Virus record (IMG/VR): IMGVR_UViG_3300025417_000018
Location: 39,402-103,401 of that record
Direction: 5' to 3' (one strand)
Length of the DNA stretch: 64,000 nt
Source of the DNA: a virus
Part shown: piece by piece, positions 7,334-64,000 of the stretch
Layout of the letters: each line of letters opens with the position of its first letter
How positions within the stretch are numbered: the stretch's first letter is position 1
Made by a program: the position numbers and the translations under genes
The notes under the pieces: generated by a model
Seen by the model: the letters and a program-made list of their open reading frames with translations, nothing else
Told to the model about the DNA's origin: nothing
Databases searched by the model: none

Positions 7334-7497
7334 TGATAAATAAATATATGAACGAAAACCTAAACAAAAAAGAAGAAAAACCCGTAGAAAAGCCCCAAAA
7401 AAAGCCAAATGAAATTGGCGGGTTCTATTTTTCTTCTGGGGTTAAAATAACTGATCCAAACACAAAAGAAGTTCTAGTACACATGCGAGGCGATTAA
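7333..7497 (+). CDS. Small Lys/Glu-rich protein, 54 aa
   Basis: The reading frame begins at an ATG overlapping the preceding stop (TAATG) or, five codons later, at the ATG at 7348 (49 aa). The later start lies 6 nt after a late-promoter-like box, so it could be used on a leaderless transcript. The first ~25 residues are Lys/Glu/Pro rich and probably flexible. The second half (IGGFYFSSGVKITDPNTKE) looks like a small folded beta segment. The gene sits between the giant fibre gene and the next structural gene, with 3 nt to the latter. No family was recognised. The position suggests a small virion or fibre-assembly protein, which is inference. Confidence 0.6.
   Translation: MINKYMNENLNKKEEKPVEKPQKKPNEIGGFYFSSGVKITDPNTKEVLVHMRGD
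7335..7342 (+). promoter_or_regulatory. Late-promoter-like box GATAAATA
   Basis: This octamer differs from the T4 late consensus TATAAATA only at the first base. It sits directly behind the stop of the giant fibre gene. Its last base is 6 nt before the ATG at 7348, the distance at which a T4-type late promoter would start transcription. Confidence 0.45.
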
Positions 7498-7500
7498 TTA

Positions 7501-8121
7501 ATGTCAGTAATACAATTATCATATAAAGTAGAAGGCTTTCTAAAAGTATACGATCCTAACAACGGAGAAGTATTTGTGGAAAAGAAAAATGCCATTAATT
7601 ATGAAAATATGTCAGAATCAATTGCTAACACATTAAGTAATCGTGGTTATGGTCAGATTTATGAAATGGCTTTTGGAAACGGTGGTGCAAGTGTAAGTGA
7701 AACAGGCGTTATTACTTATTTGCCCCCTAACGTATCTGGACAAAATGCGGCATTGTACAATCAAACTTACGCAAAAATCGTAGATGATACTAGTGTTTTT
7801 AACTTGGATCCTACACGTAACAAGATGACAGTAACGCATACGACAGGTACAGTTTATACAGATATATTAGTTCAATGTTTACTAGATTACGGTGAGCCCG
7901 CAGGTCAAGCCGCATTTGATAATAGTACACAAACTGATAGTTCTTATGTTTTTGATGAATTGGGCTTGCTCTCAAATTACGGTACAGATAATAACGGTAA
8001 CGTTATTACTACTTTATTAACTCATGTGATTTTTCACCCAGTACAAAAGAGTTTGAATAGACAAATTCAAATCGATTATACTGTAAGAATACAGAGTTTA
8101 ACTAATTTAATAACAATTTAA
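7501..8121 (+). CDS. Putative virion structural protein, 206 aa
   Basis: It starts at an ATG 3 nt after the previous stop. The composition is typical of phage beta-rich structural proteins, with few Cys and many Thr/Asn. The N-terminus (about 1-35) looks like a strand-rich domain and the C-terminus (about 165-206, ending in alternating hydrophobic residues such as IQIDYTVRIQSL) like a sheet edge. No enzymatic motif is visible. It lies between the giant fibre gene and two further fibre-like genes, so a tail, fibre or baseplate part is the best guess. No named family was recognised. Confidence 0.6.
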   Translation: MSVIQLSYKVEGFLKVYDPNNGEVFVEKKNAINYENMSESIANTLSNRGYGQIYEMAFGNGGASVSETGVITYLPPNVSGQNAALYNQTYAKIVDDTSVFNLDPTRNKMTVTHTTGTVYTDILVQCLLDYGEPAGQAAFDNSTQTDSSYVFDELGLLSNYGTDNNGNVITTLLTHVIFHPVQKSLNRQIQIDYTVRIQSLTNLITI

Positions 8122-8129
8122 GATAAATA
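8122..8129 (+). promoter_or_regulatory. Late-promoter-like box GATAAATA
   Basis: It overlaps the end of the preceding gene and lies 24 nt upstream of the ATG at 8153, leaving room for a leader with a GGAG ribosome-binding site. It matches T4 late TATAAATA at seven of eight positions. Confidence 0.5.
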
Positions 8130-8152
8130 ACAGATAACGGAGTAATTAAAAC

Positions 8153-10409: not shown

Positions 10410-10417
10410 TATAAATA
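10410..10417 (+). promoter_or_regulatory. Late promoter TATAAATA of the tailoring operon
   Basis: An exact match to the T4 late consensus, 20 nt before the ATG at 10437, with an AGGAGAG ribosome-binding site in between. The arms ATACTC and GAGTAT that follow (10414-10431) can form a 6-bp hairpin at the start of the transcript. No comparable box was noticed between the closely spaced genes up to 41027. Confidence 0.65.
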
Positions 10418-13597: not shown

Positions 13598-14272
13598 ATG
13601 GATTCTAAAAATGTGCTAAACTCTCAACTATTTGATTTAAACAAAAAAGGCACAATAATTATTGGAACTATGCGTTCTGGTTCTAATTTTCTACGTGCAT
13701 TAGTAGGTTCTAGACTAGCAGAGAGTAATATTCCTTATAATGATAATGGTGAGTATTTTACAGATAGATTTGATGTGGAAGGCACCGACGATGAATATTC
13801 ATATTTCAACATGGTTGAAAAACTACAAAAAGTAACAGCTAATAACGATAGTTATAGTGTTGGCACAATTGTCTATACAGAATTAGATATGATTTCATGC
13901 AATCCTAGTAGTTTTAAATGGTATAATGATAACTATCATTTAATTAAATTGTATAGAAGAAACTATATAAATCATTTTATGTCACATTGTATTTTTTTGC
14001 ATACCAATCGACAATACAAATATGATACTTTTTCGCAACTTGGTATGCCTTTACCAGTTAAGTATGATATACGTGAAATTAATAATTTTATAAAGAAAAT
14101 TCTAGAACTTAATAGATTTCCTTGCGACAATACACTGGTGTATGAAGACATAGAACCTGTGCCAATCGGTGAAGTGGTAAAAAATATATACAATATAACT
14201 CCTAAAGAATTTTTTGCTGATTATGATAAGTTAGTAGAAATGTTTAATTTATTGGAATACAATGTCGGGTGA
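13598..14272 (+). CDS. Sulfotransferase-like protein, 224 aa
   Basis: Residues 18-32 (GTIIIGTMRSGSNFL) form a strand-loop-helix like the 5'-phosphosulfate-binding loop of PAPS-dependent sulfotransferases (R-S-G-S-T/N). A second motif, IKLYRRNYINHFMSH (about 111-125), resembles the 3'-phosphate-binding segment (L-x-R-x-N-x-x-x-x-x-x-S). The length is near the lower end for the family. The gene begins 1 nt after the previous stop and overlaps the next by 11 nt. It may sulfate a sugar or protein made in this operon. A kinase-like P-loop is less likely given the RSGSN core. Confidence 0.6.
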   Translation: MDSKNVLNSQLFDLNKKGTIIIGTMRSGSNFLRALVGSRLAESNIPYNDNGEYFTDRFDVEGTDDEYSYFNMVEKLQKVTANNDSYSVGTIVYTELDMISCNPSSFKWYNDNYHLIKLYRRNYINHFMSHCIFLHTNRQYKYDTFSQLGMPLPVKYDIREINNFIKKILELNRFPCDNTLVYEDIEPVPIGEVVKNIYNITPKEFFADYDKLVEMFNLLEYNVG

Positions 14273-15827
14273 GTACGACCAATATGCTAGAGACATGCGT
14301 GACCGCTTGAATGCGGTCAGTCCATCACTATGTCTCGCAAAATGGCAACAAGTTTCAATACACTTGCCAAGTGGATTAACACAAAGCTGTTACCATCCTC
14401 CTACGCATAAGATTCCACTAGAGTTATTAAAAGATAATCCTAGTGTATTACACAATACACCTATCAAAATACATGAACGCAAACAAATGCTCAACGGTGA
14501 AAGACCTGAGGGTTGTAGTTACTGTTGGAAAGTAGAAGATGCACAAAGTGATGACCCCAAAGGTCACATGAGTGATAGACATTATCGCAGTAGTGAGTGG
14601 TGGAACGCACCAACATTTGACGAAGTAACAACAAATAGTTTTGACTATAATGTTACCCCTCGCTATGTAGAGGTTAATTTTAATCAAGCATGTAATTTCA
14701 AGTGCATGTATTGCAGTCCTCACCTAAGCACAAGTTGGGAAGAAGAAGTTAAAAAACATGGTGGGTATAAATTATCTGACATGACACACAACAACTTAGA
14801 GCATTTGGAGAAAAAGGGACTAATGCCACTTAAGGTTGCGGCTAAAGATAATCCATATGTTGAAGCATTTTGGCAATGGTTTCCTGAGATTTATCGTAAG
14901 TTACGTGTTTTTAGAATGACCGGCGGTGAACCACTCATGGACAAAAACACATTTAAAGTATTAGACTATGTAAATGAAAACCCACATGGTCAACTTGAAT
15001 TAAGTATAACAAGTAACATGTGTCCTCCAGATCAAAAACTATTTGATAAGTTTTTAGAAAAAGTAAAGGCACTAGAAGAATTACGTACATATGAAGACAA
15101 GGAAAACTTTAATGAGTTCAGCGGTAATCATTGGTATGTAGACAAAGGCTTCAAGCACTTTTGGTTGTTTGTATCATTAGATGGATTTGGGGAACAAGCA
15201 GAATATATGCGTACTGGATTAGAGTTTGACAGATTGTTGAACAATGTTCGTACCTTTTTACGTGAAACAAAATACAGCACAGTTAGTTTTATCAATACAT
15301 TCAACATGTTAAGCATTCCCAGCTTACATAAATTTTTAGAAATGATTTTAACACTACGTGAAGAATTTGGTGGACGTGCCCAAACTGAGTTTACAATCGC
15401 ACCCGAACAAACTGAAACTGAAAAAGAAAATAATATTGTACACAAAGTTTATAAGCAAAAGAAATATCAACGTGTATTCTTTGACATACCCATTCTACGT
15501 TATCCACCATGGTTCAGCATACAAAATGCAGGAGAATATGGTATCAAAGAAGTAGAACGTTGTTTGAAATATATGGAAGACAACGTACAAGGTGAAGACT
15601 ATTCGGAAACATTCGAAGGATTTAAACCCTATGAGATATTGAAAATCAAGCGAGACCTTGCTATAATGCAAGAATCTTTGCCAGCGGACCAAGTGTCACT
15701 AAATAAAACTAACTTCTACATGTTTATTAGTGAGTACGATAGACGTAGGCAAACAAATTTTATGGAAATATTTCCAGAACTAAAATGGTACTGGAGAGAA
15801 TGTATTAAAGCGTATACCAAACATTAA
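14262..15827 (+). CDS. Radical SAM protein 1 of 13 (AKW class), 521 aa
   Basis: The radical SAM cluster motif is C144-x3-C148-x2-C151 (CNFKCMYC), binding the [4Fe-4S] cluster that cleaves S-adenosylmethionine. The GGEP motif at 221-224 contacts SAM. Ahead of the core is a second cysteine set: C24 (CLAKW), C43 (SCYHPP), C85 and C88 (CSYCWKVED). It resembles a SPASM/twitch auxiliary-cluster ligand set but lies N-terminal instead of C-terminal. The block NPYVEAFWQWFPEI before GGEP is shared with proteins 2 and 6. The C-terminus carries the array signature YDRRRQTNFMEIFPEL. It is the longest of the set. Target unknown. Confidence 0.85.
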   Translation: MSGEYDQYARDMRDRLNAVSPSLCLAKWQQVSIHLPSGLTQSCYHPPTHKIPLELLKDNPSVLHNTPIKIHERKQMLNGERPEGCSYCWKVEDAQSDDPKGHMSDRHYRSSEWWNAPTFDEVTTNSFDYNVTPRYVEVNFNQACNFKCMYCSPHLSTSWEEEVKKHGGYKLSDMTHNNLEHLEKKGLMPLKVAAKDNPYVEAFWQWFPEIYRKLRVFRMTGGEPLMDKNTFKVLDYVNENPHGQLELSITSNMCPPDQKLFDKFLEKVKALEELRTYEDKENFNEFSGNHWYVDKGFKHFWLFVSLDGFGEQAEYMRTGLEFDRLLNNVRTFLRETKYSTVSFINTFNMLSIPSLHKFLEMILTLREEFGGRAQTEFTIAPEQTETEKENNIVHKVYKQKKYQRVFFDIPILRYPPWFSIQNAGEYGIKEVERCLKYMEDNVQGEDYSETFEGFKPYEILKIKRDLAIMQESLPADQVSLNKTNFYMFISEYDRRRQTNFMEIFPELKWYWRECIKAYTKH

Positions 15828-15836
15828 GGAAAACAC

Positions 15837-17369
15837 ATGGCAGGTAAAAAACACACAGAAAGTTTTGCAGAGTATAAAGCACGATTGATTGATCCAATTA
15901 GTGAGAGTTATTGTGCGGCAAAATGGCTAAACGCAACTATTTGGTTGGGTAATGGTCAAACAACAAGCTGTCACCACCCATTAGGTCATCAAATTGATGC
16001 CAATGAATTGATTGAAAACCCTTCAGCAATTCATAATACTCCACATAAAAAACTTATGCGTAAAATGATGCAGGAAGGCACACGTCCACAAGAGTGTGAG
16101 TACTGCTGGAAGATTGAAGATATTGGTCGTAACAACATCAGTGACCGCGTATACAAGACTGCTGTATTTGAAGAAGAACATATTTTAAAAACTGCCAAAG
16201 CAGATTGGCAAGAAAACACAATGTTGCGTACATTAGAAATTAGTTTTGATAGAACATGCAACTTTGGTTGCAGTTATTGTAACCCTAGTTTTAGCACAAC
16301 ATGGGTAAAAGACATTCACAAGTATGGCCCATATCGTAACATCGATGGTGATGCCCGTAGTCACTTTGTTAATGCGGCAGACCACGCAAAGCCATTGCCT
16401 GATGAAGTTAACCCATATATTCAAGCCTTTTGGCGTTGGTGGGAACAAGAAGATGGTCTTGCAGATAACTTAGAAGAAATTCGCATTACAGGTGGGGAGC
16501 CATTAATGGCTCCGGGCGTATGGAAACTATTCGAATGGTTCAAAGCAAATCAAGAACGTGTTAAAAATCGTAAAGATGGAAAAGTTATGCGTTATGCGAT
16601 TAACAGTAACTTAGTTCCTAAAGATGATATCATGGATAGATTGATTGAGTTAAGTCACTTTGTCCCGCACTTAGAAGTATACACTAGCGCAGAAAGTTTA
16701 GGCGCACATAGCGAATATATTCGTGATGGTTTCATTTGGGATAAATGGATTCATAATTTAACACGTTTACATACTGAAGGTAATATCAAAAAGACACACA
16801 TTATGATGACAATCAATAGTTTGTGTTTAGCAAGTATTACTGAGTTCATGGATGAAATACTAGCATTTAAGCGTAAGCATGACACTCACTATCCAACAAT
16901 GAGTTTGAACATCTTACGTTTCCCTAGCTTTCAAAGTTGCTCATTATTGCCAATGGATGTTCGTCAAAAGTACAGCGAAAAACTACAAGTATGGTTAGAT
17001 GAACAAATTGCAAAAGATGAAAGAACAACAGGCGGTAGCCCAATTCTTATGCATATTGAGCGTGAGCAAACACAACGACTGATTGACTATCTTGACGTTA
17101 TTAAAACTCCGCACAAAAATGTTAAAGACCCTGAGCAAAACAAACGTGACTTTAAACAATTCTACCATCAATATGATATTCGTAGAGGTAAAGACTTCCG
17201 TAATACATTCCCGCAAGAGTTTGTAGACTTTTACGATAGTATTGACACAGACTTACCAACTGAAACAGAAATCACAACAGGTCAATATAGTGATGGTACA
17301 GGGTATATTCCAATTCATCCTGCTGAAGATCCTAGTAAAGATGTGTTTGTTAACCCAGATTTACAATGA
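15837..17369 (+). CDS. Radical SAM protein 2 of 13 (AKW class), 510 aa
   Basis: N-terminal cysteines C26 (CAAKW), C45 (SCHHPLGH), C87 and C90 (CEYCWKIED) precede the radical SAM motif C141-C145-C148 (CNFGCSYC) and GGEP at 219-222. It shares the NPYIQAFWRWW block and the C-terminal YDIRRGKDFRNTFPQEF signature with its neighbours. A ~35-residue acidic, Pro-rich tail follows and is unique to this copy. It has its own GGAAA-type ribosome-binding site 9 nt behind the previous gene, and it overlaps the next gene by 4 nt. Closest to proteins 1 and 6; reaction unknown. Confidence 0.85.
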   Translation: MAGKKHTESFAEYKARLIDPISESYCAAKWLNATIWLGNGQTTSCHHPLGHQIDANELIENPSAIHNTPHKKLMRKMMQEGTRPQECEYCWKIEDIGRNNISDRVYKTAVFEEEHILKTAKADWQENTMLRTLEISFDRTCNFGCSYCNPSFSTTWVKDIHKYGPYRNIDGDARSHFVNAADHAKPLPDEVNPYIQAFWRWWEQEDGLADNLEEIRITGGEPLMAPGVWKLFEWFKANQERVKNRKDGKVMRYAINSNLVPKDDIMDRLIELSHFVPHLEVYTSAESLGAHSEYIRDGFIWDKWIHNLTRLHTEGNIKKTHIMMTINSLCLASITEFMDEILAFKRKHDTHYPTMSLNILRFPSFQSCSLLPMDVRQKYSEKLQVWLDEQIAKDERTTGGSPILMHIEREQTQRLIDYLDVIKTPHKNVKDPEQNKRDFKQFYHQYDIRRGKDFRNTFPQEFVDFYDSIDTDLPTETEITTGQYSDGTGYIPIHPAEDPSKDVFVNPDLQ

Positions 17370-18499
17370 CCGATAACAGATATATATGTCCATTGGCTTT
17401 TGGTGCTGTTCATTATGACATGGACAACAAAATGGGACCCTGTTCGTTAAACAACATGGTCAATGTCAAAACAATTGATGAATATCTGAAAGACGAAAAA
17501 CTACAACAATTAAAATCAGACATGAAAAATGGTATTAGAAATCCATTATGTAATTCATGTTATAATTTAGAGGAGATAGACCAAAATATTGGTAGCAATA
17601 GACAATTTTGGTTGTCAAAAACTGATAAAACTATTTTTGAATCAGATAATTTTTCTCACTTAGAAGTTAGATTTTCAAACATATGCAATTCTAAATGCAG
17701 AACGTGCATACCAAATACCAGTTCACCAATTGCCACAGAAGAAAAAAAATACTTAAATTGGAAGTTTCCGGTATTACGTTATTCTGGGATAGATGAAAAT
17801 TTTATATTAAATCAGTCAAAGCAAATTGCTAGTAATCTAAAAACAGTTACCTTTAGTGGAGGAGAGCCTCTACTACAATGGCAACATTGGGACTTTTTAG
17901 ATTATCTTATAGAAAACAAACTAGACCCTCAGTTGTTATATTACAGTAATGCATCACTATTGACATTTAAGAACCAACACATTTTTGATAAATGGAAACA
18001 TTTTAGTGATGTTATTTTTAGAGTAAGTATAGATGCAGTTGAAGATTCTGCCGAATATTGGAGACATGGAGAAAAATGGGATACAATTATTAATAACGTT
18101 AAACAAGTTAAACAATTAATGCCAAATGTTAAATTAGAGTATACAGTAACTATATCTTGGCCAAATGTTTTTCATGTAGAAAAGATAATTGATGCACTAG
18201 CTTCTTTTGATAATAAACCACAAATTAATTTTAATACAGTATACTCAGATTTGTTTAATTTGCAAGTATTACCTAAAAATATCAAAACACGTGTTGAAAA
18301 ATATTTTAATAGTATTGATAAAAATAAAGTTAATATGGATACATTGAAGGGAATGGTTTTATTTATGAACAGTAAAGATAAATCAAATTTGATGACAGCG
18401 GCAATAGCAAGATTAAAAGAAGTTGATTTACGTAGGGAAGAATCATTTATTAATGCGTTTCCCGAATACAAAGAAATGGCGATAGAATATGGATACTAA
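17366..18499 (+). CDS. Radical SAM protein 3 of 13, 377 aa
   Basis: N-terminal ligands C8 (ICPLAF), C26 (GPCSLNN), C62 and C65 (CNSCYNLEE); radical SAM motif C107-C111-C114 (CNSKCRTC); GGEP 165-168 (TFSGGEPLL). The N-terminal set reads F/L rather than KW or PW after the first Cys, so it is intermediate between the two main classes. The C-terminal signature VDLRREESFINAFPEYK is intact. Base composition is more AT-rich than in proteins 1 and 2, suggesting a separate history. Reaction unknown. Confidence 0.85.
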   Translation: MTDNRYICPLAFGAVHYDMDNKMGPCSLNNMVNVKTIDEYLKDEKLQQLKSDMKNGIRNPLCNSCYNLEEIDQNIGSNRQFWLSKTDKTIFESDNFSHLEVRFSNICNSKCRTCIPNTSSPIATEEKKYLNWKFPVLRYSGIDENFILNQSKQIASNLKTVTFSGGEPLLQWQHWDFLDYLIENKLDPQLLYYSNASLLTFKNQHIFDKWKHFSDVIFRVSIDAVEDSAEYWRHGEKWDTIINNVKQVKQLMPNVKLEYTVTISWPNVFHVEKIIDALASFDNKPQINFNTVYSDLFNLQVLPKNIKTRVEKYFNSIDKNKVNMDTLKGMVLFMNSKDKSNLMTAAIARLKEVDLRREESFINAFPEYKEMAIEYGY

Positions 18500-19898
18500 T
18501 AACAGAATAATCCCTATATGGGGAGATAATGCAAAGCCTGCTCCTGAAAGCAAAAACAAAGTGTTTTGCATGGCGCCATGGACACACACTTACATAAGCC
18601 CACAAAGCGAACGCAGATTATGTTGTGCCAGTCGTGAAGAACATAGCTTTCAAAAACAATATATTGACAGTAGTAATGATAGCAAGTATGGCAATGTAAA
18701 AGAAAGCGGTACTTCACTTGATGCATATAAGCCTATTAGTCTAAAAGAACATTGGAACAGTCCATACATGCGTGACATACGTGTTAAGTTAATGCGTGGC
18801 GAAGAGATTCCACAATGTGATGTATGCAACAAAAATCTATTGATGGAAGGTTATAGCTACCGCGGTTGGTTTACCGGTGCATTGTTCCGTGACAAAATAC
18901 AACAAGCATTTGATAGCACAGACGATAATGGTTACACCACGATGGAACCAATTAGTTTCGATTATCGCTTTAGCAATCTATGCAATTTCAAATGTCGTAT
19001 GTGCGGAGAACAATTAAGTAGCGCATGGGAAACTGAAAAGAAAACACATGATATGTGGACACCAAAGAATCAACCTTTTATGATTCCGGAAATCAAAAGT
19101 GCCATGCAAGACTTTCAAGTTAATGTTGTGGAAGCAGAATTTAAGGATGCGGTACGCAGGGGTATTGTTGAAGAAATGTATTGGGTTGGTGGTGAGCCAT
19201 TGATGTATGATATACATTGGTGGACATTAGAAGAAATGCTGAATAACGGGAGTAATGAGAAATGTTACATGCGTTATAACAGTAACTTAAGTCGTGTACA
19301 ATTTGGAAAGAAAAACTTATATGATTATCTTCCATTGTACAAAGACTGGATGATGTGTGCAAGTATTGATGGCACTGGTGAAATTGTTGAATACATTCGC
19401 ACAGGCATTAAATGGGACAAGTGGTTAGAAAACTTCAAGCAAGGACTAGCATTACCAAATGGTAAAGACAAAATGGTTCTTGATTTAACACTAACTGCTC
19501 CAGGCATGTTTTCAATTAAAGACTTGTTTGACTTGAGTATTGAATTAGATGTTAAGATTGAAACTAAAACAACGTTTGGCTTTCACAATGATATCATGTG
19601 GACACCATTAAGTTGGCCACGTCCTATACTCAACGACATGGTAGATGATATCTTAGAGTACATTACACCACGTGCTACGTGGAAACAAGACACCTTGATT
19701 GGTAACTTAAAGGCATTAAAAGAAACACGTAAAACACATGCCGAAGAGTGGCCAGAAACATACAAACAGGGTGCTAAAAACGGTAAAGGTTGGGTAGAAA
19801 GACTAGAGCAAATTCGTGAGAATCCGTTAACCCTACGTGACATTTACAGTCGTAACCCTGAATTATTAAAATGGTGGGATAATATTTACAATGAGTGA
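18489..19898 (+). CDS. Radical SAM protein 4 of 13 (PW class), 469 aa
   Basis: N-terminal cysteines C27 (FCMAPWTH), C45 and C46 (LCCASREE), C110 and C113 (CDVCNKN); radical SAM motif C165-C169-C172 (CNFKCRMC); GGEP 234-237. There is an insertion of ~45 residues between the core motif and GGEP compared with protein 5. The C-terminal signature is degenerate (LTLRDIYSRNPELLKWW). The ATG lies inside the end of protein 3 (11-nt overlap). The PW/CC/CxxC order matches the N-terminus of SPASM-like auxiliary-cluster proteins. Reaction unknown. Confidence 0.85.
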   Translation: MDTNNRIIPIWGDNAKPAPESKNKVFCMAPWTHTYISPQSERRLCCASREEHSFQKQYIDSSNDSKYGNVKESGTSLDAYKPISLKEHWNSPYMRDIRVKLMRGEEIPQCDVCNKNLLMEGYSYRGWFTGALFRDKIQQAFDSTDDNGYTTMEPISFDYRFSNLCNFKCRMCGEQLSSAWETEKKTHDMWTPKNQPFMIPEIKSAMQDFQVNVVEAEFKDAVRRGIVEEMYWVGGEPLMYDIHWWTLEEMLNNGSNEKCYMRYNSNLSRVQFGKKNLYDYLPLYKDWMMCASIDGTGEIVEYIRTGIKWDKWLENFKQGLALPNGKDKMVLDLTLTAPGMFSIKDLFDLSIELDVKIETKTTFGFHNDIMWTPLSWPRPILNDMVDDILEYITPRATWKQDTLIGNLKALKETRKTHAEEWPETYKQGAKNGKGWVERLEQIRENPLTLRDIYSRNPELLKWWDNIYNE

Positions 19899-21069
19899 TA
19901 CATTATGCGTACTACCCTGGATGCATTTGGCTACGCACCCTAACGGAGGAGCTAGCCTATGTTGCCGTAGCAATCATACAAATGCAATCAGTTGGGCAAA
20001 GAAAGATGACACACAAAGTCTAGTTATGCTTGACAATGATAGTGTTAGTGACATTATGAACAGTAAAAAGTTTATTGAAGTTCGCCAAGCTATGATAGAT
20101 GGACAACGTCCTGTTGAGTGTGAAGGCTGTTGGAGTGACGAAGACAAGGGCATTAAAAGCAAACGTCAATATGAAAACGAACGTTGGGCGCACATTATAC
20201 CTTTACTAGAAAAATCTGCTAAGTTACAAAACGTAGACTTGCGTTATGTAGAGTTACGATTGGGTAATGTATGTAACAATGCTTGTTTAACTTGCAACAG
20301 TTATAGCAGTAGCAAATGGTATCCTGATGAAAAGAAAATTGCTAAAGTGTTGCCTTGGTTCGAATTGCGCCCGCTTGAAAATTTCAAATGGTTTGAAAAA
20401 CCCGAGTTCTATCAAGACTTAGCAGAACACAGTAAAGACGTAGAAGAAATTTACATCAATGGTGGTGAACCTACATTGATTAAAGCACACTTTGAATACT
20501 TAAAGAAATTGATATTGTTAGATGTTGCACAAAATGTACATTTGGTTTACAGCTTGAACATGATGGATATTCCCAGCAACTTAATTGCATTATGGAAAAG
20601 TTTTAAAAAGGTTACAGTCAACGCAAGTATTGATGACTTGAATGAACGCAACTATTATATTCGTTACCCAACCAAATGGGAACAGACACTTAACAGTATT
20701 AAAAAACTAAACAAACTAAAGAATGTAGACTGGCATGTTACGCAGACTGTTAGCATTTTCAATATCTATAACTTAGACAAGTTTAGCGATTGGTTAAGTA
20801 GTGAATACAACAAACACCCACATCACAATTATGTGTTATACCCAGACTACTTAAGTCTAGCAGTATTGCCCAACCATATCAAAACTGAGTTGAAAGAATA
20901 CTATGCTGACAAGTTACCCGAATATCAACGCAATGATTTGTTTGCTAAACTTAACATAGAGTTTCAACCTGAACTACTAACTAAAGCCAAAGACTTTATT
21001 GTAGCAGTTGACAATGCACGTAATATAAGATATAATGATTACATACCAGAATTAGAGAAATTTTTATGA
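19891..21069 (+). CDS. Radical SAM protein 5 of 13 (PW class), 392 aa
   Basis: N-terminal cysteines C6 (LCVLPWMH), C24 and C25 (LCCRSNH), C77 and C80 (CEGCWSDED); radical SAM motif C128-C132-C135 (CNNACLTC); GGEP 191-194 (INGGEPTLI). The C-terminal signature is recognisable as DNARNIRYNDYIPELEKFL. It overlaps its upstream neighbour by 8 nt and its downstream neighbour by 4 nt. No precursor-binding (RRE-like) domain is evident at the N-terminus. Reaction unknown. Confidence 0.85.
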   Translation: MSDTLCVLPWMHLATHPNGGASLCCRSNHTNAISWAKKDDTQSLVMLDNDSVSDIMNSKKFIEVRQAMIDGQRPVECEGCWSDEDKGIKSKRQYENERWAHIIPLLEKSAKLQNVDLRYVELRLGNVCNNACLTCNSYSSSKWYPDEKKIAKVLPWFELRPLENFKWFEKPEFYQDLAEHSKDVEEIYINGGEPTLIKAHFEYLKKLILLDVAQNVHLVYSLNMMDIPSNLIALWKSFKKVTVNASIDDLNERNYYIRYPTKWEQTLNSIKKLNKLKNVDWHVTQTVSIFNIYNLDKFSDWLSSEYNKHPHHNYVLYPDYLSLAVLPNHIKTELKEYYADKLPEYQRNDLFAKLNIEFQPELLTKAKDFIVAVDNARNIRYNDYIPELEKFL

Positions 21070-22349
21070 TACCAATTATTCCAGATAAGATTAAAGATAG
21101 TTTTTGTTCAGCCAAATGGTTAATGGCTACCATGCACTTTGGTATGGGAGAAAATCACAGTTGCTACCACCCACCAATACATCGTTGGAACTTAGAAGAT
21201 GTAAAACGTGACCCAAGCATGTTGCACAACACCGCACATAAAATTGAGCAACGTAGACAAATGATGAATGGTGAAAAACCTAACGAATGCTATTACTGTT
21301 TTGACATGGAAAAGATTAATCCAGATGTGATTAGTGATAGAAAACGTTTTACCAACGAACAATATGCTATTGAACGCAGAGAAGAAATTATCAATGCACC
21401 TTATGATAAACATATCAATCCCAGTTATTTGGAACTAAGTTTTAGTAACGTGTGTAACTTTGGTTGCAGTTATTGCAGTCCTGGACAAAGTAGTAAGTGG
21501 GAAACAGAAGTACGCAAGTATGGTAGTTACCCCATTGAAGACCCTACAGTACACAAAGACAAAATGCATGACATGTTATTAGAAGATGACAATCCATATA
21601 TTGATGCATTTTGGCAGTGGTTACCAGATGCTTACAAAGACTTAAAATATCTACGCATTACAGGGGGTGAACCACTTGCAACTCGCAACTTTATGAAGTT
21701 GTTAGACTTTGTTGCAACAAATCATAACCCCAACTTAACATTGGTTGTAAACACAAACTTGTGTGTACCTGATAAGAACTTAAACATGTTCTTTGAAAAA
21801 GCAACAACATTATTAAATGCTAAAACAATCAAAGGCTTAGAAGTATATACAAGCATGGATACATGGGGCCCACAAGCTGAGTACATTCGTGATGGGTTAG
21901 ATATTGAACGTTGGGAAAATACTGTACGCAAAGTAAGTACAACATTTAATGTACCTATTCGTATTATGGTAACGTTTGGGTTAATGAGTATTTTTAACTT
22001 TAAAACATTTATACAGAAAGTTATTGAACTACGCAATGATGGCATAGACATTATGTTTAATTGTGCAAGACTTGTTGACCCTAAACAGTTTGATTTAAGA
22101 ATTCTCCCTGATTATTGCGATAAGTACTTTGATGATACAAATGATTTTATTAAAAACAATAATGTAACTAATGTAGAAGAAGAAACGTGGCAAATGGTTT
22201 ATGACTTTTGGAAAGCACGACACGACACAATGACAACAGAAGACAGAGATTGGCGTACAGACCAGTTTAGTAAGTTTGTTAATGAGTATGACAAACGCAG
22301 AAATAAAAACTTTAACATGAATTTCCCGGAGTTATCAGGATGGATTTAA
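21066..22349 (+). CDS. Radical SAM protein 6 of 13 (AKW class), 427 aa
   Basis: N-terminal cysteines C14 (FCSAKW), C33 (SCYHPPIH), C75 and C78 (CYYCFDMEK); radical SAM motif C130-C134-C137 (CNFGCSYC); GGEP 200-203 preceded by NPYIDAFWQWLPDAY. The C-terminal signature YDKRRNKNFNMNFPEL is near-ideal. It is closest to protein 1 in the HPP block and in the FWQW segment, suggesting duplication followed by insertion of unrelated paralogues between them. Reaction unknown. Confidence 0.85.
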   Translation: MIPIIPDKIKDSFCSAKWLMATMHFGMGENHSCYHPPIHRWNLEDVKRDPSMLHNTAHKIEQRRQMMNGEKPNECYYCFDMEKINPDVISDRKRFTNEQYAIERREEIINAPYDKHINPSYLELSFSNVCNFGCSYCSPGQSSKWETEVRKYGSYPIEDPTVHKDKMHDMLLEDDNPYIDAFWQWLPDAYKDLKYLRITGGEPLATRNFMKLLDFVATNHNPNLTLVVNTNLCVPDKNLNMFFEKATTLLNAKTIKGLEVYTSMDTWGPQAEYIRDGLDIERWENTVRKVSTTFNVPIRIMVTFGLMSIFNFKTFIQKVIELRNDGIDIMFNCARLVDPKQFDLRILPDYCDKYFDDTNDFIKNNNVTNVEEETWQMVYDFWKARHDTMTTEDRDWRTDQFSKFVNEYDKRRNKNFNMNFPELSGWI

Positions 22350-23473
22350 CACCTTACAAAAATTGTCTAGCACTAACAAATAGTATTTTTATTGCTAATG
22401 AAGAAAAACCCTACAGACCTTGCTGTTGGTTCAAAACTTATATTGATGCAGTTGATGCAGATGATTATAGAAAACAACTAAGTGAAATGGACTTAGAGTA
22501 TAATTGCGATTATTGTATCAAGCAGGATCAAGGTGGGCAATATAGTTATAGACAACAATTTGATAAACCAGACGAATTGATATTAACAGTTTCATTTGAC
22601 AATATTTGTAACTTGGGTTGCATTACCTGCACTCCTTCAAATTCAACAACATTGATTAAAGAATTTTTTGTTGATTGGCCTGACGGAGTAATGGGTAAAG
22701 ATAAAAAGTATTACACACGTTTGCAACAACAAGCTCCTAAGAAAGTAGATTTTGTTAAAACAACTCTAGCCAACAATACATTCAAAACAATACGTGTAGA
22801 CATATTGGGCGGTGAACCATTGATTAATCCTGCTATCTTTGAATTTTTAGATTGGTTAAGCGAACAATCTTATGCAAAAAATACCATGATTAGTATTACT
22901 ACAAATGGTACCACATACAGCGACAAAATACTTAAGTATTTGGATAAGTTTTCTAACGTTATCATTCAGTTAAGTATTGATGGTATTAATCAAGAGTATG
23001 AATATTTGCGATATGGAAATGATTTTACCACATTAGAAAAAGTATGTGATGAATTTTATAAATTAACTGAAACACACAGTAACTTTTTTATAGGAAGTCA
23101 CTATACATTAAGCTGGATGAATTGTTTGCATTTCGCACAATACTACAATTGGGCACAACGCAGATATCCAAAATGGAATATCTATGTTAGTAAACTAGAT
23201 GTACCAGAACATTTTTCAATTGATTTGTTATCCGTAGATATGAAAACACGTGTGTTCAATAAAGTTATGACCGAATTGGACACCCCAGTTAATGAAAATT
23301 ATGAACGTTGCTTGTTTCTTTACAAAGAGCATATGCTATCCACAACCTATGATTCATATGACAAAGAGTTATTAAGAAGTGGAATAAATTCGTTAAATGT
23401 CTTTGATGGTAGACGTGGTAATACACATCAACCATTGGTACAAGATTTTTTACAATTTATAGGCTATAAGTAA
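22340..23473 (+). CDS. Radical SAM protein 7 of 13 (CCWFK class), 377 aa
   Basis: N-terminal cysteines C9 (YKNCLA), C28 and C29 (PCCWFK), C56 and C59 (CDYCIKQD); radical SAM motif C90-C94-C97 (CNLGCITC); GGEP 157-160 followed by LINPAIFEFLDWL. It is a tandem duplicate of the next gene: both begin with DLTPYK, share CCWFK, ITC and YAKNT-x-I-x-ITTNGTT. The N-terminus to first cluster distance is the shortest of the array. The C-terminal signature is only partly kept (FDGRRGNTHQPLVQDF). Reaction unknown. Confidence 0.85.
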   Translation: MDLTPYKNCLALTNSIFIANEEKPYRPCCWFKTYIDAVDADDYRKQLSEMDLEYNCDYCIKQDQGGQYSYRQQFDKPDELILTVSFDNICNLGCITCTPSNSTTLIKEFFVDWPDGVMGKDKKYYTRLQQQAPKKVDFVKTTLANNTFKTIRVDILGGEPLINPAIFEFLDWLSEQSYAKNTMISITTNGTTYSDKILKYLDKFSNVIIQLSIDGINQEYEYLRYGNDFTTLEKVCDEFYKLTETHSNFFIGSHYTLSWMNCLHFAQYYNWAQRRYPKWNIYVSKLDVPEHFSIDLLSVDMKTRVFNKVMTELDTPVNENYERCLFLYKEHMLSTTYDSYDKELLRSGINSLNVFDGRRGNTHQPLVQDFLQFIGYK

Positions 23474-23474
23474 A

Positions 23475-44850: not shown

Positions 44851-44856
44851 GAGAGT

Positions 44857-44921: not shown

Positions 44922-44932
44922 AAAGGTATTAT

Positions 44933-45055: not shown

Positions 45056-45056
45056 T

Positions 45057-45245: not shown

Positions 45246-45319
45246 AATCTTTGTGACTACAATCACATACATCTTAGATAATAAAAATTATAATAACGTT
45301 TTAAAAAGGAATTAAAAAC

Positions 45320-46288: not shown

Positions 46289-46331
46289 TCAAGACAAGAA
46301 GTTGTCGATTCATTAACAAAAGGAAATAACA

Positions 46332-47200: not shown

Positions 47201-47208
47201 GATAAATA
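47201..47208 (+). promoter_or_regulatory. Late-promoter-like box GATAAATA, leaderless spacing
   Basis: It is flanked by the inverted arms TAGCAA and TTGCTA (47195-47214). Its last base is exactly 6 nt before the ATG at 47214, and no ribosome-binding site is present. Confidence 0.5.
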
Positions 47209-47213: not shown

Positions 47214-47984
47214 ATGAAAAAAACATACCGAACCATTTTTATTAGTGATGTTCATCTTGGTACAAGAGATTGTAAAGCAGAACAACTTAATAATTTCTTA
47301 AAACACAATACGTGTGAAACACTTTACTTAGTGGGAGATATTATTGATGCTTGGAAAATTCAACAAAATAAATGGCGTTGGAAACAAAGTCATAGCAATG
47401 TAGTTCGTAGAGTTTTAGGACATGCCAAACGTGGCACTAGAGTTGTGTATGTAGCAGGAAATCACGATGAATTTCTTAGGCCGTTAATACCGTATGGATT
47501 GGGATTTGGTGCAGTAGAAATTGTTAATCAAACTGAGCATATAGGTATTGATGGCAGACACTATTTGGTAACGCATGGGGATTTGTTTGATGGGATTACT
47601 AAATTAGCACCCTGGTTAGCCTTTTTAGGTGACAAGATGTATGATATTGTATTAGAATTAAACAGTAAATTCAATGCGTTACGACATAAACTAGGATTAG
47701 GTTATTGGAGCTTAAGTAAATTTTTGAAACACAAAGTTAAAAAAGCCGCAGACTTTGTGTTTCAGTTTGAAAAAAATATAACAGCTTATTGTAAAAAGCG
47801 TGGATTTGATGGAGTAATATGCGGACACATACATCATGCAGAAATAAAAATGATAGATGATGTGATTTACATGAATGACGGTGACTGGGTAGAATCAATG
47901 ACTGCATTAGTAGAACATCATGATGGGCATTGGGAAATAATAACTTGGACGAAAGCAAACGATGACAGTATTAGTATTAACTAA
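47214..47984 (+). CDS. LpxH-like calcineurin-fold phosphatase, 256 aa
   Basis: All metal-binding blocks of the calcineurin-like family are present in order: D12-x-H14 (SDVHLG), GDIID (41-45), GNHDE (82-86), HGD (121-123) and GHIHH (204-208). The length and the WRWKQSHS and GDWVESMTALVE segments match the family annotated as UDP-2,3-diacylglucosamine diphosphatases, which hydrolyse a lipid A precursor at the inner membrane. Members paired with glycosyltransferases, as here, may act on other lipid or sugar diphosphates. Overlaps the next gene by 23 nt. Confidence 0.75.
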   Translation: MKKTYRTIFISDVHLGTRDCKAEQLNNFLKHNTCETLYLVGDIIDAWKIQQNKWRWKQSHSNVVRRVLGHAKRGTRVVYVAGNHDEFLRPLIPYGLGFGAVEIVNQTEHIGIDGRHYLVTHGDLFDGITKLAPWLAFLGDKMYDIVLELNSKFNALRHKLGLGYWSLSKFLKHKVKKAADFVFQFEKNITAYCKKRGFDGVICGHIHHAEIKMIDDVIYMNDGDWVESMTALVEHHDGHWEIITWTKANDDSISIN

Positions 47985-57491: not shown

Positions 57492-58444
57492 AGATTTTAG
57501 TAACAGGTGGGTGCGGTCTTATTGGACACAACGTTGTTAGTAGATTAGAAGACCTTGGACATGATGTATGTATCATGGACACACAAACAAATTACGGTAT
57601 TATACCTCAAGATGAAATTGATTACCTATTAACACAACGTGCCAAGAAATTTAAGAGTGAAGTTTGGTTGAGAGATATATGTGATGCAGAAAAAGTAGAT
57701 AGAACTTTTGCAATTGAAGAACCTGAGATTGTAATTCACATGGCTAGTTTTCCAAGACAAAAAGTAGTTAATGCAAATCCTGCACTTGGTAGCAGAACGA
57801 TGAGTGAAGGATTACTCAACTTGTTGGAAGCTAGTAATAAGTATGAAGTTAGAAAATTCATTTATATCAGCAGTTCAATGGTGTATGGTGACTTTACTGG
57901 AGTTGTAAAAGAAGATGCAATTTGTAATCCAATTGGTCAATATGGTATTATGAAACTTGCAGGTGAACATCTTGTTAAAGATTACGCACGTAAAAATTTA
58001 GCATATACAATAATTCGCCCTAGTGCAGTATACGGACCTCTTGATGTTGAAGACAGAGTAATTAGTAAATTCTTACTAACAGCAATGCGTGGTGGAATAC
58101 TTAAAGTTAACGGACGTACAGAGACATTGGATTTCACCTACGTAGATGATGCCGCAGATGGTATCGTATCCGCATCATTAAGTGACAACACAGACAATAA
58201 AACATATAACATTACAAAAAGTCATGCAGTTACTTTATATGATGCCGCATCAATAGCAGTATCATTAGCCGGGCGTGGCACAATTGAAGTACGTGATAAA
58301 GACTTTGATTTTCCTAGCAGAGGTGCATTAGATTGTACTGCCGCTAAAAAAGACTTTAATTATGATCCTAAAGTAGACGTAGCTGAAGGATTTGAAATCT
58401 ATTATAATTGGCTTAAGAACGATCCCTTTTTCAAAATTGCATAA
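57488..58444 (+). CDS. NAD-dependent epimerase/dehydratase (extended SDR), 318 aa
   Basis: The start at 57488 gives MKILVTGGCGLIGHNVV, a Rossmann start with TGGCGLIG (6-13). An in-frame ATG 54 nt upstream would add unrelated residues from the membrane gene. The active-site YxxxK is Y152-G-I-M-K156, with Ser in ISSSMVYG (127-134). Such enzymes epimerise or dehydrate nucleotide sugars (GalE, RfbB types). It could supply sugars to the glycosyltransferases elsewhere in the window; specific sugar unknown. Confidence 0.8.
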   Translation: MKILVTGGCGLIGHNVVSRLEDLGHDVCIMDTQTNYGIIPQDEIDYLLTQRAKKFKSEVWLRDICDAEKVDRTFAIEEPEIVIHMASFPRQKVVNANPALGSRTMSEGLLNLLEASNKYEVRKFIYISSSMVYGDFTGVVKEDAICNPIGQYGIMKLAGEHLVKDYARKNLAYTIIRPSAVYGPLDVEDRVISKFLLTAMRGGILKVNGRTETLDFTYVDDAADGIVSASLSDNTDNKTYNITKSHAVTLYDAASIAVSLAGRGTIEVRDKDFDFPSRGALDCTAAKKDFNYDPKVDVAEGFEIYYNWLKNDPFFKIA

Positions 58445-58447
58445 ATA
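58440..58447 (+). promoter_or_regulatory. Late-promoter-like box CATAAATA, leaderless spacing
   Basis: It overlaps the SDR stop codon and sits in the inverted repeat TGCATA/TATGCA (58438-58453). The last base is 6 nt before the ATG at 58453. No ribosome-binding site. Confidence 0.45.
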
Positions 58448-58452: not shown

Positions 58453-58908
58453 ATGATGTCATTTATATTTTCTCAAATAACCATCCCTATGTGGATGTAT
58501 CATTCAATACTAATAATAGGTATAGTGGGAGCATTAGTTGGCTCAATACTAGAATTACTCCCGTATCTTAAAATATACGTAACTCCCGTAAGAGCAATCA
58601 GCATAGTATTAATTATAGCCGGTATATATATTGAAGGTGATTTAGCTGGACGTGCAGAATTCAAAGTTGAAGCCGCAGAAGCACAGGCTAAGGTAGCACA
58701 AGTACAAGCAGAATCAGAAAAAGAAAACGTAAAAATAGTTACAAAAGTAATTACAAAAACGCAATATTATAAAACACGCGGTGATGATATAGTTCGTTAT
58801 GTTGATAGAGAAGTAACAAAATATGACAGCAAATGTGAAATCCCACAAGCATTTGTAGACGCACACAATCAAGCGGCTAGTAAACAATCCAAGGACACAT
58901 TAAAATGA
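58453..58908 (+). CDS. i-spanin (Rz-like), 151 aa
   Basis: N-terminal membrane helices (MYHSILIIGIVGALVGSIL; AISIVLIIAGIYI) are followed by a periplasmic coiled-coil segment (AEAQAKVAQVQAESEKENV) and a charged tail. This and the overlapping lipoprotein gene form the usual i-spanin/o-spanin pair that fuses inner and outer membranes at lysis. The ATG codes MM; the second Met is an alternative start. Confidence 0.75.
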   Translation: MMSFIFSQITIPMWMYHSILIIGIVGALVGSILELLPYLKIYVTPVRAISIVLIIAGIYIEGDLAGRAEFKVEAAEAQAKVAQVQAESEKENVKIVTKVITKTQYYKTRGDDIVRYVDREVTKYDSKCEIPQAFVDAHNQAASKQSKDTLK

Positions 58909-59180: not shown

Positions 59181-59217
59181 TCCTATTAAAGAGATAAATA
59201 CTTTATATCTCTAGGAT
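59180..59217 (+). promoter_or_regulatory. Late-promoter-like box within nested inverted repeats
   Basis: GATAAATA is at 59193-59200. Inner arms AGAGATA/TATCTCT (59190-59196, 59206-59212) and outer arms ATCCTA/TAGGAT (59180-59185, 59212-59217) enclose it. AGGA in the right outer arm is the ribosome-binding site for 59222. Confidence 0.55.
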
Positions 59218-61224: not shown

Positions 61225-61232
61225 GCTAAATA
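61225..61232 (+). promoter_or_regulatory. Late-promoter-like box GCTAAATA, leaderless spacing
   Basis: Six of eight matches to TATAAATA; its last base is 5 nt before the terminase ATG, with no ribosome-binding site. Arms TAGTTTTAGC and GCTACAACTA (nine of ten paired) surround it. Confidence 0.4.
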
Positions 61233-61236: not shown

Positions 61237-62787
61237 ATGGCTACAACTAATGCTACGTCTTTGGTAAAGACACCTTATAAAAAGACAACTTTTACACAAC
61301 AACAATTACAAGACTTTGTAAAATGTTGTGACCCTGATACAGGTTATCTATACTTCATGGATAACTTTTTCTATATACAACATCCTACAAAAGGTAGTAT
61401 GTTGTATCATCCTTGGCCATATCAAGAACGATTGATTGAAACATATCACAAATATCGTTATAGTATTAGCTTGATGCCTCGACAGAGTGGTAAATCAACA
61501 AGTGCCGCGGGTTACTTATTATGGTACGCAATGTTTGTACCAGATAGTACGATTCTAATTGCCGCACACAAATACACAGGTTCACAGGAGATTATGCAAC
61601 GTATACGTTATGCATATGAAAACTGTCCCGACCACATTAAAGCAGGTGTAACTACATACAACAAAGGATCACTAGACTTTGAAAACGGTAGTCGTATTGT
61701 TAGTGCAACAACTACTGAAAATACAGGTCGTGGTATGTCTATTACACTATTGTATCTTGATGAGTTTGCATTCGTAAGACCAAGCATTGCCAAAGAATTC
61801 TGGACTGCTATTACACCAACACTAGCAACTGGTGGTAAAGCGATTATTACAAGTACACCAAATAGTGACGAGGATCAATTTGCGTACATTTGGAAAGGTG
61901 CTAATAAAACAGAAGATGAGTTTGGTAATCAAACTGAATTAGGTGTAAACGGTTTCAAAGCATATCGTGCATATTGGAATGAACAACCAGGACGTGACCA
62001 AGTTTGGGCTGACCAAATGAAAGCACAATTAGGTGAGGATCGTTTCAACCGAGAAATTGGTTGTGAGTTCATTATTGCTGATGAAACATTGATTAATCCT
62101 AACACCTTAATTACACTAGAAGGCATGGAACCTATTGAAAGAATGGGGCAAATACGCTGGTATAAGAAACCAACTAAAGGAAATTTATATGTAGTTGGGC
62201 TAGACCCAAGCCTAGGTACAGGTGGCGATCCTGCAGGTATACAAGTGTTTGAAGCAAACACACTTACACAAATAGGTGAATGGAAGCACAATAGAACGGA
62301 TATCCCCAATCAAATTAAACTGATAGCACAAATCAATAAGTACATAGTAGAATGTACAAATGAACCTAACAGTCTATATTATAGCATAGAAAACAACAGC
62401 ATTGGTGAAGCCGCATTAGTGTCATTAAATGAATATGGGGAAAATAATATACCTGGCATATTTATGAGTGAGCCAGGTAAAAAACGCAAAGGTTTTAACA
62501 CAACAAATAAAAGTAAATTAACAGCATGTGCTAAATTTAAAACGCTACTTGAAAGCAAAAAGATGAAAATAAATAGTCGTAGTCTTATAACTGAATTGAA
62601 AGCGTTTGTAGCACATGGTGGTAGTTATGCCGCTAAGATAGGTGATACTGATGACTTGATTATGGCAACACTATTAACTGTTAGAATTATACAAGAATTA
62701 GGATCATATCATTTAGAGTTAGACAACTATGTACGTGACCACGAAGAAATGATAGCACCATTACCCTTCTTTGCCGTAATGGGATAA
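61237..62787 (+). CDS. terL: Terminase large subunit (T4 gp17-like), 516 aa
   Basis: The packaging ATPase shows Walker A PRQSGKST (81-88), Walker B LLYLDEFAF (171-179) with catalytic Glu176, and coupling motif TSTPN (205-209). The nuclease half begins VVGLDPSLGTGGDPAG (Asp323) with further acidic residues in GDTDDLIMA near 478. It is shorter than T4 gp17 (~610 aa) mainly at the N-terminus. It works with the portal to pump DNA into the prohead. This is the most reliable phage marker in the window. Confidence 0.92.
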   Translation: MATTNATSLVKTPYKKTTFTQQQLQDFVKCCDPDTGYLYFMDNFFYIQHPTKGSMLYHPWPYQERLIETYHKYRYSISLMPRQSGKSTSAAGYLLWYAMFVPDSTILIAAHKYTGSQEIMQRIRYAYENCPDHIKAGVTTYNKGSLDFENGSRIVSATTTENTGRGMSITLLYLDEFAFVRPSIAKEFWTAITPTLATGGKAIITSTPNSDEDQFAYIWKGANKTEDEFGNQTELGVNGFKAYRAYWNEQPGRDQVWADQMKAQLGEDRFNREIGCEFIIADETLINPNTLITLEGMEPIERMGQIRWYKKPTKGNLYVVGLDPSLGTGGDPAGIQVFEANTLTQIGEWKHNRTDIPNQIKLIAQINKYIVECTNEPNSLYYSIENNSIGEAALVSLNEYGENNIPGIFMSEPGKKRKGFNTTNKSKLTACAKFKTLLESKKMKINSRSLITELKAFVAHGGSYAAKIGDTDDLIMATLLTVRIIQELGSYHLELDNYVRDHEEMIAPLPFFAVMG

Positions 62788-62794
62788 GAAATTA

Positions 62795-62802
62795 GATAAA
62801 TA
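62795..62802 (+). promoter_or_regulatory. Late-promoter-like box GATAAATA, leaderless spacing
   Basis: Seven of eight matches to TATAAATA, 7 nt behind the terminase stop. Its last base is 5 nt before the ATG at 62807; no ribosome-binding site. Confidence 0.5.
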
Positions 62803-62806
62803 CATT

Positions 62807-64000
62807 ATGCCAATTAATACAGAAACACTCAACCGCAAATTATACAACAAGTTATCGAAGTATTCACCAAAACCATTAGATTCTAGTGGTAAAGTGACTC
62901 CAGTAGAGGACGATGCCGACGTTTTCAAATTTAAGTTTACTATGGATGGTAAAGAATACGGAGACGTTTTTGCCACAGTTGATGATGAGCGTAGATTGAT
63001 ATTGTATTATGGTGATGATGTAGGTGACAGTCCAGAAACACCAACACCAGGTATAGGATACAATGACACATGGCTGGGATTTGTAGAAGATTTAAAATCA
63101 TGGAAAACACGCAACGGATTTAAAGGTTGGCAATTAAAGAATCAAGACCAATTGGCACCAGATATGGCTAGGAGAAATCATATGAAGAAAAAAGATAATT
63201 TAGGAGAAGCATATTACCCAATGGGTAAAAAAGCAAGTTATAGCGATAGTGTTCCAACTATCAAGATGGTTATTCAACATACCCGTCAAATTGAAGAAGG
63301 TGAACAACGTTATCGCAATATCGCTAAAATCTTTTTAGAGAATCAAGATGGTGAACGTTTCTTAGCACCAACATTAAAACCAGGCATTGCACGTGTATAT
63401 GCACGACATATTGCTGAAGGTGGTAAACCACATGATGAGCGTTGGAATCATATTGGCAGTTTATGCGAAGAATATCAAAAAATGGCAGGATTTGTACGTG
63501 CTACACGTGGTCAACAGTTTAATGAATCAGCACAACAGTTAGTTGAAAGTGGTATACAACATTACTACACATTACGTGAATCATTAAGTAAAATGACAGG
63601 TCATCGTGGTTATAACGCATACTTTGAAAGCTGGACTCCTCCATTAATGGAAGATGATAGTGAAGGTGAAAATATCAATGAGTTGTTTGTACAAGAAACC
63701 GTTGATCCAAGAATTGAAAGCGTAATGCCTATACTATCAAGACTACACAAAAAAGTAGCAGAGACAAAAATTGATAGAGAACTAAACCAATTAGCAGAGT
63801 GGGCTGAAAGTCTAGACCAAGATTTAGAAGAAGATGATGGAATGCAAAGTAACAATCCAGTTGGCATTCCTGAAGATGAAGAAGTAGAAGAAAACTTTAT
63901 CAACATGGTTCCTCAGGCAGTAGCGGAAGGTCTTGATGACACACAACGTGCCAGATTAGATGATTTAATTGACAAATATAAGGACTCTGTAGACCCAGAA
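62807..64000 (+). CDS. Conserved T4-like phage protein, 3' end outside the window (398 codons seen)
   Basis: The frame is open to the right edge. The N-terminal ~125 residues look like a separate alpha/beta domain (FKFTMDGKEYGDVFATVDDE), then an Arg/Lys-rich linker and a helical section: AYYPMGKKASYSDSVPTIKM, IQHTRQIEEGEQRYRNIAKI, RVYARHIAEGGKPHDERWNH and MAGFVRATRGQQFNESAQ. I believe this pattern recurs in marine T4-like phages. An acidic region (about 340-365) follows. Placed next to the terminase, so a head or packaging role is possible; function not known. Confidence 0.65.
   Translation, partial: MPINTETLNRKLYNKLSKYSPKPLDSSGKVTPVEDDADVFKFKFTMDGKEYGDVFATVDDERRLILYYGDDVGDSPETPTPGIGYNDTWLGFVEDLKSWKTRNGFKGWQLKNQDQLAPDMARRNHMKKKDNLGEAYYPMGKKASYSDSVPTIKMVIQHTRQIEEGEQRYRNIAKIFLENQDGERFLAPTLKPGIARVYARHIAEGGKPHDERWNHIGSLCEEYQKMAGFVRATRGQQFNESAQQLVESGIQHYYTLRESLSKMTGHRGYNAYFESWTPPLMEDDSEGENINELFVQETVDPRIESVMPILSRLHKKVAETKIDRELNQLAEWAESLDQDLEEDDGMQSNNPVGIPEDEEVEENFINMVPQAVAEGLDDTQRARLDDLIDKYKDSVDPE

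Follow-up and report, generated by a model that had tools for sequence, protein, structure and literature searches.

Late transcription in phage T4 (gp55/gp33/gp45) is a textbook system, in which a TATAAATA-type box is the sole promoter element. T4 late boxes precede the transcription start by roughly one helical turn (PMC2988020). In the T4 stretch that we examined, and in those of the cyanophages Syn9 and S-PM2, T4-type late boxes stand only ahead of leadered genes, which in T4 carry a Shine-Dalgarno (SD) site. Leaderless messages, with the start codon at the 5' end and no SD, are known from other phages and bacteria; the lambda cI message is one. These are not driven by a phage late sigma factor. 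For phage AR9, 5' untranslated regions of 26-491 nucleotides (nt) are reported, with a remark that phage transcripts are often leaderless (PMC5312081). Here, we examine late-type boxes in the final 64 kb (the window) of a 103,401-base uncultured virus contig, IMG/VR record IMGVR_UViG_3300025417_000018.

Late promoters in the window and its relatives fall into two placement classes, as an earlier reading of the window (the original prediction) had proposed, and the class is conserved by gene family. This follows from the bimodal distance between box and ATG, the contrast in SD strength, the base before the start codon, and the use of ATG. Judging from box geometry and base bias, which would put the 5' ends at or next to the start codon, the late messages of the short-gap genes are likely to be leaderless. 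Unlike the leaderless messages described above, leaderless placement in these phages is a promoter-placement class that spans many phage genes. The combination of T4-type late transcription with leaderless initiation is likely a new variant; we found no report of leaderless T4-type late messages in the open-access literature that we searched.

The contig is of T4 type. It encodes a T4-type large terminase (PF03237/PF17289, in the window), a T4 gp9/10-like protein, and, outside the window, a gp23-like major capsid protein. A gp55-type late sigma homologue lies on the same contig (G000 C1:14618-14983, minus strand; phrog_12791, E = 1.3e-71), as expected for T4-type late promoters, and one was also detected in four of the five relatives tested. 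The boxes are TATAAATA-like and have no conserved -35 element, the sequence ahead of them being divergent in relatives except in the metallophosphoesterase family. They are over-represented both on the coding strand and in front of genes.

Late boxes and their genes in the window

All five boxes of the original prediction were found where it had placed them, close to an ATG, although the measured distance is 4 or 5 nt rather than the 5-6 nt claimed. Four have the predicted ATAAATA-type sequence, whereas the box at 61225 reads CTAAATA. The short-gap boxes and the genes they precede are:

7335-7342, + strand: late-type box GATAAATA, 5 nt before ATG 7348; second register AATAAATA at 7339
7348-7497, + strand: 49-amino acid (aa) open reading frame (ORF) with conserved C-terminal motif KPNE..GGFYFSS..DPNTKEVLVQ.RGD; no SD
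47201-47208, + strand: box GATAAATA, 5 nt before ATG 47214; either of late type or the -10 element of a Pho-type promoter
47214-47984, + strand: metallophosphoesterase gene (PF00149); no SD
58440-58447, + strand: late-type box CATAAATA, 5 nt before ATG 58453; shares bases with the 3' end of the ORF ahead of it
58453-58908, + strand: phrog_4952 gene ("signal peptide motif"); one relative also matches an Rz-like spanin
61225-61232, + strand: late-type box GCTAAATA, 4 nt before ATG 61237
61237-62787, + strand: T4-type large terminase (gp17; PF03237, PF17289); no SD
62795-62802, + strand: late-type box GATAAATA, 4 nt before ATG 62807
62807-64000, + strand: virion structural gene with a weak match to phrog_13484; continues past the end of the contig

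The leadered boxes, one of which (44647) was absent from the original prediction, are:

8122-8129, + strand: late box, 23 nt before ATG 8153, SD present
10410-10417, + strand: late box, 19 nt before ATG 10437, SD present
41047-41054, + strand: late box, 41 nt before ATG 41096, SD present
44647-44654, + strand: late-type box, 20 nt before an ATG with a strong SD
46276-46283, + strand: late box, 48 nt before ATG 46332, SD present
59193-59200, + strand: late box, 21 nt before ATG 59222, SD present; second box at 59172

The predicted SD split is clear-cut. Anti-SD duplex energies were 0.6, -0.7, 1.6, 0.6, and -1.2 kcal/mol for the short-gap genes (7348, 47214, 58453, 61237, and 62807) and -6.1, -7.7, -6.4, -5.6, and -4.0 kcal/mol for the leadered genes (8153, 10437, 41096, 46332, and 59222), so that the two ranges (-1.2 to +1.6 and -4.0 to -7.7) do not overlap. 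Genes with neither SD nor box, which the original prediction regarded as damaging if equally common, make up 13 of the 52 other listed genes and mostly abut or overlap the gene before them. By ORF coordinates, nine overlap the preceding gene or lie at most 1 nt from it, a tenth begins 8 nt downstream, two have doubtful TTG starts, and one (48919) is free-standing.

A box stands 4-6 nt upstream of 5 of the 57 listed starts (one listed position is not an ATG). When the upstream 40-mers of these starts were shuffled in 20,000 trials, the mean was 0.32 and the maximum 4. Three further short-gap boxes open ORFs outside the window (C1 5826, minus strand; 4017, minus strand; 23776, plus strand), of 598, 79, and 150 aa, respectively. 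The window's box form is [ACG]ATAAATA/CTAAATA (mostly G/A/CATAAATA or CTAAATA), which differs from the T4 TATAAATA; the exact T4 octamer is not enriched in the window (4 copies against 11.3 expected). ATAAATA occurs 19 times on the coding plus strand versus 6 times on the minus strand.

Two other sites were observed. CTTAAATA lies 4 nt before ATG 31991, the start of a radical SAM type gene, within the end of the preceding ORF (31979-31994), and is possibly a sixth short-gap site or else a coincidence. At 46276, the box AATAAATA is followed after 1 nt by the ATG of a 14-codon mini-ORF (46276-46331), which stops just short of the SD-led, porin-like gene at 46332.

Box-to-ATG gaps in freshwater relatives

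The same two classes are seen among freshwater relatives. Across 1,149 ORFs, TAAATA ended 4, 5, and 6 nt before the ATG in 48, 104, and 36 cases, with a total of 12 at gaps of 9-17 nt and a second hump at 18-26 nt. Counting each of 715 families once gave 58 family-counts at gap 4-6 versus 21 at gap 9-17. By comparison, 11 of 14 permuted control hexamers gave only 5-14 family-counts at gap 4-6. Those with raised counts were AAATAT and ATAAAT, both of which overlap the box, and ATAATA, whose signal largely represents TATAAT(A) host-type promoters. The dominant gaps are 4-6 nt and about 15-30 nt, with few in between. Chance in an AT-rich genome was considered and ruled out by the upstream shuffles, the permuted hexamers, and the conservation of spacing in relatives. 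Raw genome-wide pattern counts were noisy (100 versus 48 for a reversed-pattern control in G001, 31 versus 27 in G002, and 13 versus 14 in G005), and we therefore used gene-anchored counts.

We also counted distinct upstream sequences, using only the first ATG of each ORF. Counts at gaps of 4-6, 9-17, and 18-30 nt were 135, 2, and 59 in the terminase set (80 loci with terminase relatives at 80-100% identity) and 59, 10, and 48 in the metallophosphoesterase set. Ascertainment through choosing the ATG nearest to 5 nt was rejected as an explanation, as the bimodality persists with first ATGs only.

Placement is conserved within families. In nearly all 80 terminase loci, [AC]TAAATA lies just ahead of the start codon, within a few nt, while the remaining upstream sequence is divergent; with the window included, the box is at gap 4-6 in 72 of 81 members. 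The same gap is found in 68 of 78 members of the 62807 family (31 of 43 distinct upstreams from 80 loci, after dropping 36 duplicates and one without an ATG) and in 34 of 58 distinct upstreams of the 7348 family (80 loci; 21 duplicates and one at an edge dropped). The 58453 family contributes 19 distinct short-gap upstreams. Conversely, a leadered arrangement prevails in the 59222 family (47 of 49 members). The short-gap layout is thus well supported at 61237, 62807, and 58453. Switches of placement within a family were seen in four freshwater families, with short-gap to leadered counts of 72 to 1 for terminase (the leadered member having an SD energy of -5.3) and 3 to 6, 4 to 1, and 1 to 3 for the others.

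The short-gap class in marine phages

Pelagibacter phage HTVC008M (Kyanoviridae) shares the gap-5 class, with different short-gap genes than the window. At 11 of its genes, exactly 5 nt separate [AC]TAAATA from the ATG, and all 11 of these ATGs are deposited start codons. These include genes for head closure, a gp48-type tail tube cap, baseplate, and tail completion. Its terminase start, unlike that of the window, lies inside the preceding gene, and it shows no TATAAT peak at gap 6. Counted as above, gaps of 4-6, 9-17, and 18-30 nt occur 12, 0, and 4 times in HTVC008M and 69, 3, and 24 times in the marine set. A separate marine tally gave 0, 62, and 9 at gaps of 4, 5, and 6 nt.

In contrast, no first-ATG gene has a box at 4-6 nt in the stretches of T4 (160 kb), Syn9 (140 kb), or S-PM2 (100 kb) that were examined. 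Their late boxes are leadered, with counts of 0, 4, and 19 in T4, 0, 1, and 12 in Syn9, and 0, 0, and 15 in S-PM2. The window shares with T4 the late sigma homologue, the single-box promoter, and the SD-bearing leadered genes, and differs in having the short-gap class.

The original prediction coupled box distance to SD strength, and this trade is visible within one gene. For marine relatives of HTVC008M gp48, a baseplate family, 80 loci yielded 38 distinct upstreams (39 duplicates, one at an edge, and two without an ATG were dropped). In 29 of these, the box is at gap 5 and SD energies range from -1.5 to +1.6; in the other nine, it is at gap 20-28, with energies of -3.7 to -7.1 in eight and -1.5 in one.

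Late promoter prediction in pelagimyophages is reported to have failed (PMC7029224), which contrasts with the clear gap-5 boxes at 11 HTVC008M genes; these boxes may represent the missing late promoters. HTVC008M has a named cultured host, and leaderless late initiation is therefore directly testable. Because the short-gap genes differ between freshwater and marine clades, the layout appears to be labile and probably convergent.

Where transcription would start

The T4 late octamer is commonly quoted at -13 to -6, leaving five nt between box and +1, so that +1 would be the A of a gap-5 ATG. A sigma70 -10 hexamer ends at -7, which would make +1 the A of a gap-6 ATG. Late boxes peak at gap 5 and TATAAT boxes at gap 6, exactly the gaps predicted for each. 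TATAAT is at gap 6 in 25 families, versus 1-7 families at other gaps up to 29 nt. By analogy with sigma70 geometry, this peak would calibrate the start-at-A reading independently. Among the relatives L109-L188 (for example, L179, L186, and L113), promoters with TTGACA-like and TATAAT elements end 6 nt before the ATG. Judged from their sequences, leaderless placement in the relatives is not confined to late promoters and reaches host-type promoters.

A purine immediately precedes the ATG in 5% (weighted) of gap-5 upstreams versus 52% of box-less genes; by family, the counts are 5 of 38 short-gap versus 307 of 619 box-less (Fisher P = 7e-6). A pyrimidine-rich -1 position is what a start fixed by a pyrimidine-A step would produce. 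Where it is in the gene's frame, the gap-5 triplet is ATG in 102 of the 145 freshwater cases and in 57 of the 66 marine ones. Overall, these 211 triplets comprise 159 ATG, 0 GTG, and 1 TTG, with some bias against other starts because the ORF list was anchored on ATG. One GTG start was found in the metallophosphoesterase family (L121), behind a TTAAATA box.

We propose that the [ACG]ATAAATA/CTAAATA boxes act as T4-type late promoters for host RNA polymerase carrying the phage gp55-type sigma, since both the sigma homologue and the box are present. In the leadered setting, the box would lie about 15-50 nt upstream and yield a message with an SD site. In the leaderless setting, with the box ending 4-6 nt before the ATG, transcription would begin on the first base of the start codon (A at +1, a pyrimidine at -1) or no more than a couple of nucleotides away. 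The ribosome would then initiate on the 5'-terminal AUG without SD contact. The setting would be specified gene by gene, conserved by family within a phage clade and differing between clades. Under this scheme, the mRNAs would be translated without a leader, and the amount of protein made might be affected.

Evidence against and alternative explanations

Several observations weigh against leaderless late messages. The absence of an SD in the short-gap class is partly automatic, because at gap 4-6, the box occupies the SD stretch. Median SD energies by family were +0.4 kcal/mol for short-gap (38), -5.4 for leadered (60), and -3.5 for box-less (619) families; what is informative beyond forced loss is the stronger-than-average SD of the leadered class, together with the family switch and the base bias. 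Gap 4 is untidier than gap 5, with -1 purine fractions of 0.40 at 4, 0.05 at 5, and 0.14 at 6, and strict T4 spacing at gap 4 puts +1 on the T of the ATG. There is no sharp initiator signal after leadered boxes, and hence no independent calibration of +1 from them. In the 7348 family, 24 of 58 distinct upstreams fall outside gap 4-6 and many members have a purine at -1; some of the off-gap members have a doubled box with the first copy at gap 4-6. The 62807 family has 6 of 43 upstreams at gap 20-22 without a clear SD and another 6 at gap 7. Lastly, the phrog_11259 set has 33 distinct upstreams at gap 9-17 and one at 4-6 (ORFs of at least 60 aa). These 33 are mostly one family, at gap 15-17 with an SD. 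In the 10437 family (MDTKTLI.EAKARFN), about 2.9 kb downstream of the phrog_11259 match in L368-L447, boxes lie 15-17 nt from the ATG with an SD between the two, making these the shortest leadered late promoters in this analysis. The valley is therefore shallower, and the gap between the classes is about 9-14 nt.

For one gene, the box itself may be of another kind. The box at 47201 has the predicted short placement, at 5 nt, and its late identity is ambiguous because relatives carry PHO-box-like repeats just upstream. In the 47214 family, 52 of 80 relatives have the box at gap 4-6. The pattern CTGTMAYN4CTGTMAY (at most four mismatches) is found in 41 of 43 distinct boxed upstreams of this family versus 6 of 196 other short-gap upstreams, and half-sites peak at -39 and -29/-28 from the box. 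To judge by these repeats, the promoter in the relatives is thus probably of Pho type, set in the same register for a leaderless message. No clear PHO box is visible in the window's own copy, which has five mismatches to a pattern whose four-mismatch cut is passed by 3.4% of random window positions. We put the chances about evenly that this one box is the -10 element of a host-derived PhoB-type promoter rather than a late box; it would still be placed for a leaderless message. The 13 bacterial metallophosphoesterase relatives (42-57% identity; several proteobacterial groups and one Leptospiraceae) were uninformative about the host. Ten of the 13 had no ATG at the aligned start or in the 30 nt leading up to it, which left no start codon from which to read a promoter.

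Two alternatives concern the short-gap class as a whole. Late transcription could start 1-5 nt before the ATG, giving ultra-short leaders rather than strictly leaderless messages. Gaps of 7-8 nt do occur (22, 14, and 8 in the terminase, metallophosphoesterase, and marine sets, respectively), as do purines between box and ATG in 7348 family members. This reading is nevertheless unlikely, given that the marine gap is nearly always exactly 5, 33 of 38 short-gap families have a pyrimidine at -1, and ATG is nearly the exclusive start. Alternatively, the genes could be served by read-through transcripts from upstream, the box being an AU-rich site for the ribosome (S1) or a chance result of how compact the intergenic regions are. 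Short intergenic gaps, the abundance of other permuted AT-rich hexamers upstream of genes, and the SD-less genes without a box in the window (13 of 52) are all compatible with this. However, the enrichment is of a specific hexamer at a specific distance and not of AT-richness, an identical box stands 15-30 nt upstream of SD genes, the gp48 family switch ties box distance to SD, and T4, Syn9, and S-PM2 are without the short-gap class. We consider read-through highly improbable.

Implications

Returning to leaderless late messages, conservation of placement per family suggests a functional reason, such as fixing relative output. In the uncultured relatives, freshwater and marine, the distance from promoter to ATG also appears to serve as a translational switch. 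A broader reading, which we hold only tentatively and rate at somewhat below even, is that promoter placement by itself might give aquatic T4-type phages two late translation programmes running in parallel. Under it, the leaderless set in the window's clade would comprise the packaging motor, the virion gene next to it, a gene of lysis type, and a small conserved protein. The habit would also cover sigma70 and Pho-type promoters in relatives, which would suggest that hosts or phages have adapted to leaderless initiation. It would have arisen with different gene sets in freshwater and marine clades. If this is true, the phage would be able to fix the ratio of leaderless to SD-led sets, and the leaderless set would be independent of anti-SD access.

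Other features of the window

Twelve ORFs of about 377-521 aa (14262-33265, plus strand) form one homology cluster in a nearly tandem arrangement. Each of the four ORFs tested has a match to Pfam Radical_SAM. Two of these matches exceed the curated cut-off, in ORFs that also match SPASM, and the other two fall below it. We know of no comparable radical SAM gene array in a phage, although no search aimed at one was made.

The window also contains a permuted two-piece transfer-messenger RNA (tmRNA) gene (44829-45267, plus strand; Rfam RF04321, 138.8 bits; beta_tmRNA RF01850, E = 8e-41). ARAGORN predicts the tag ANDSVYSLAA, and a late-type box AATAAATA lies just upstream at 44837. A second permuted tmRNA is found in relative L164, beside a large tRNA cluster.

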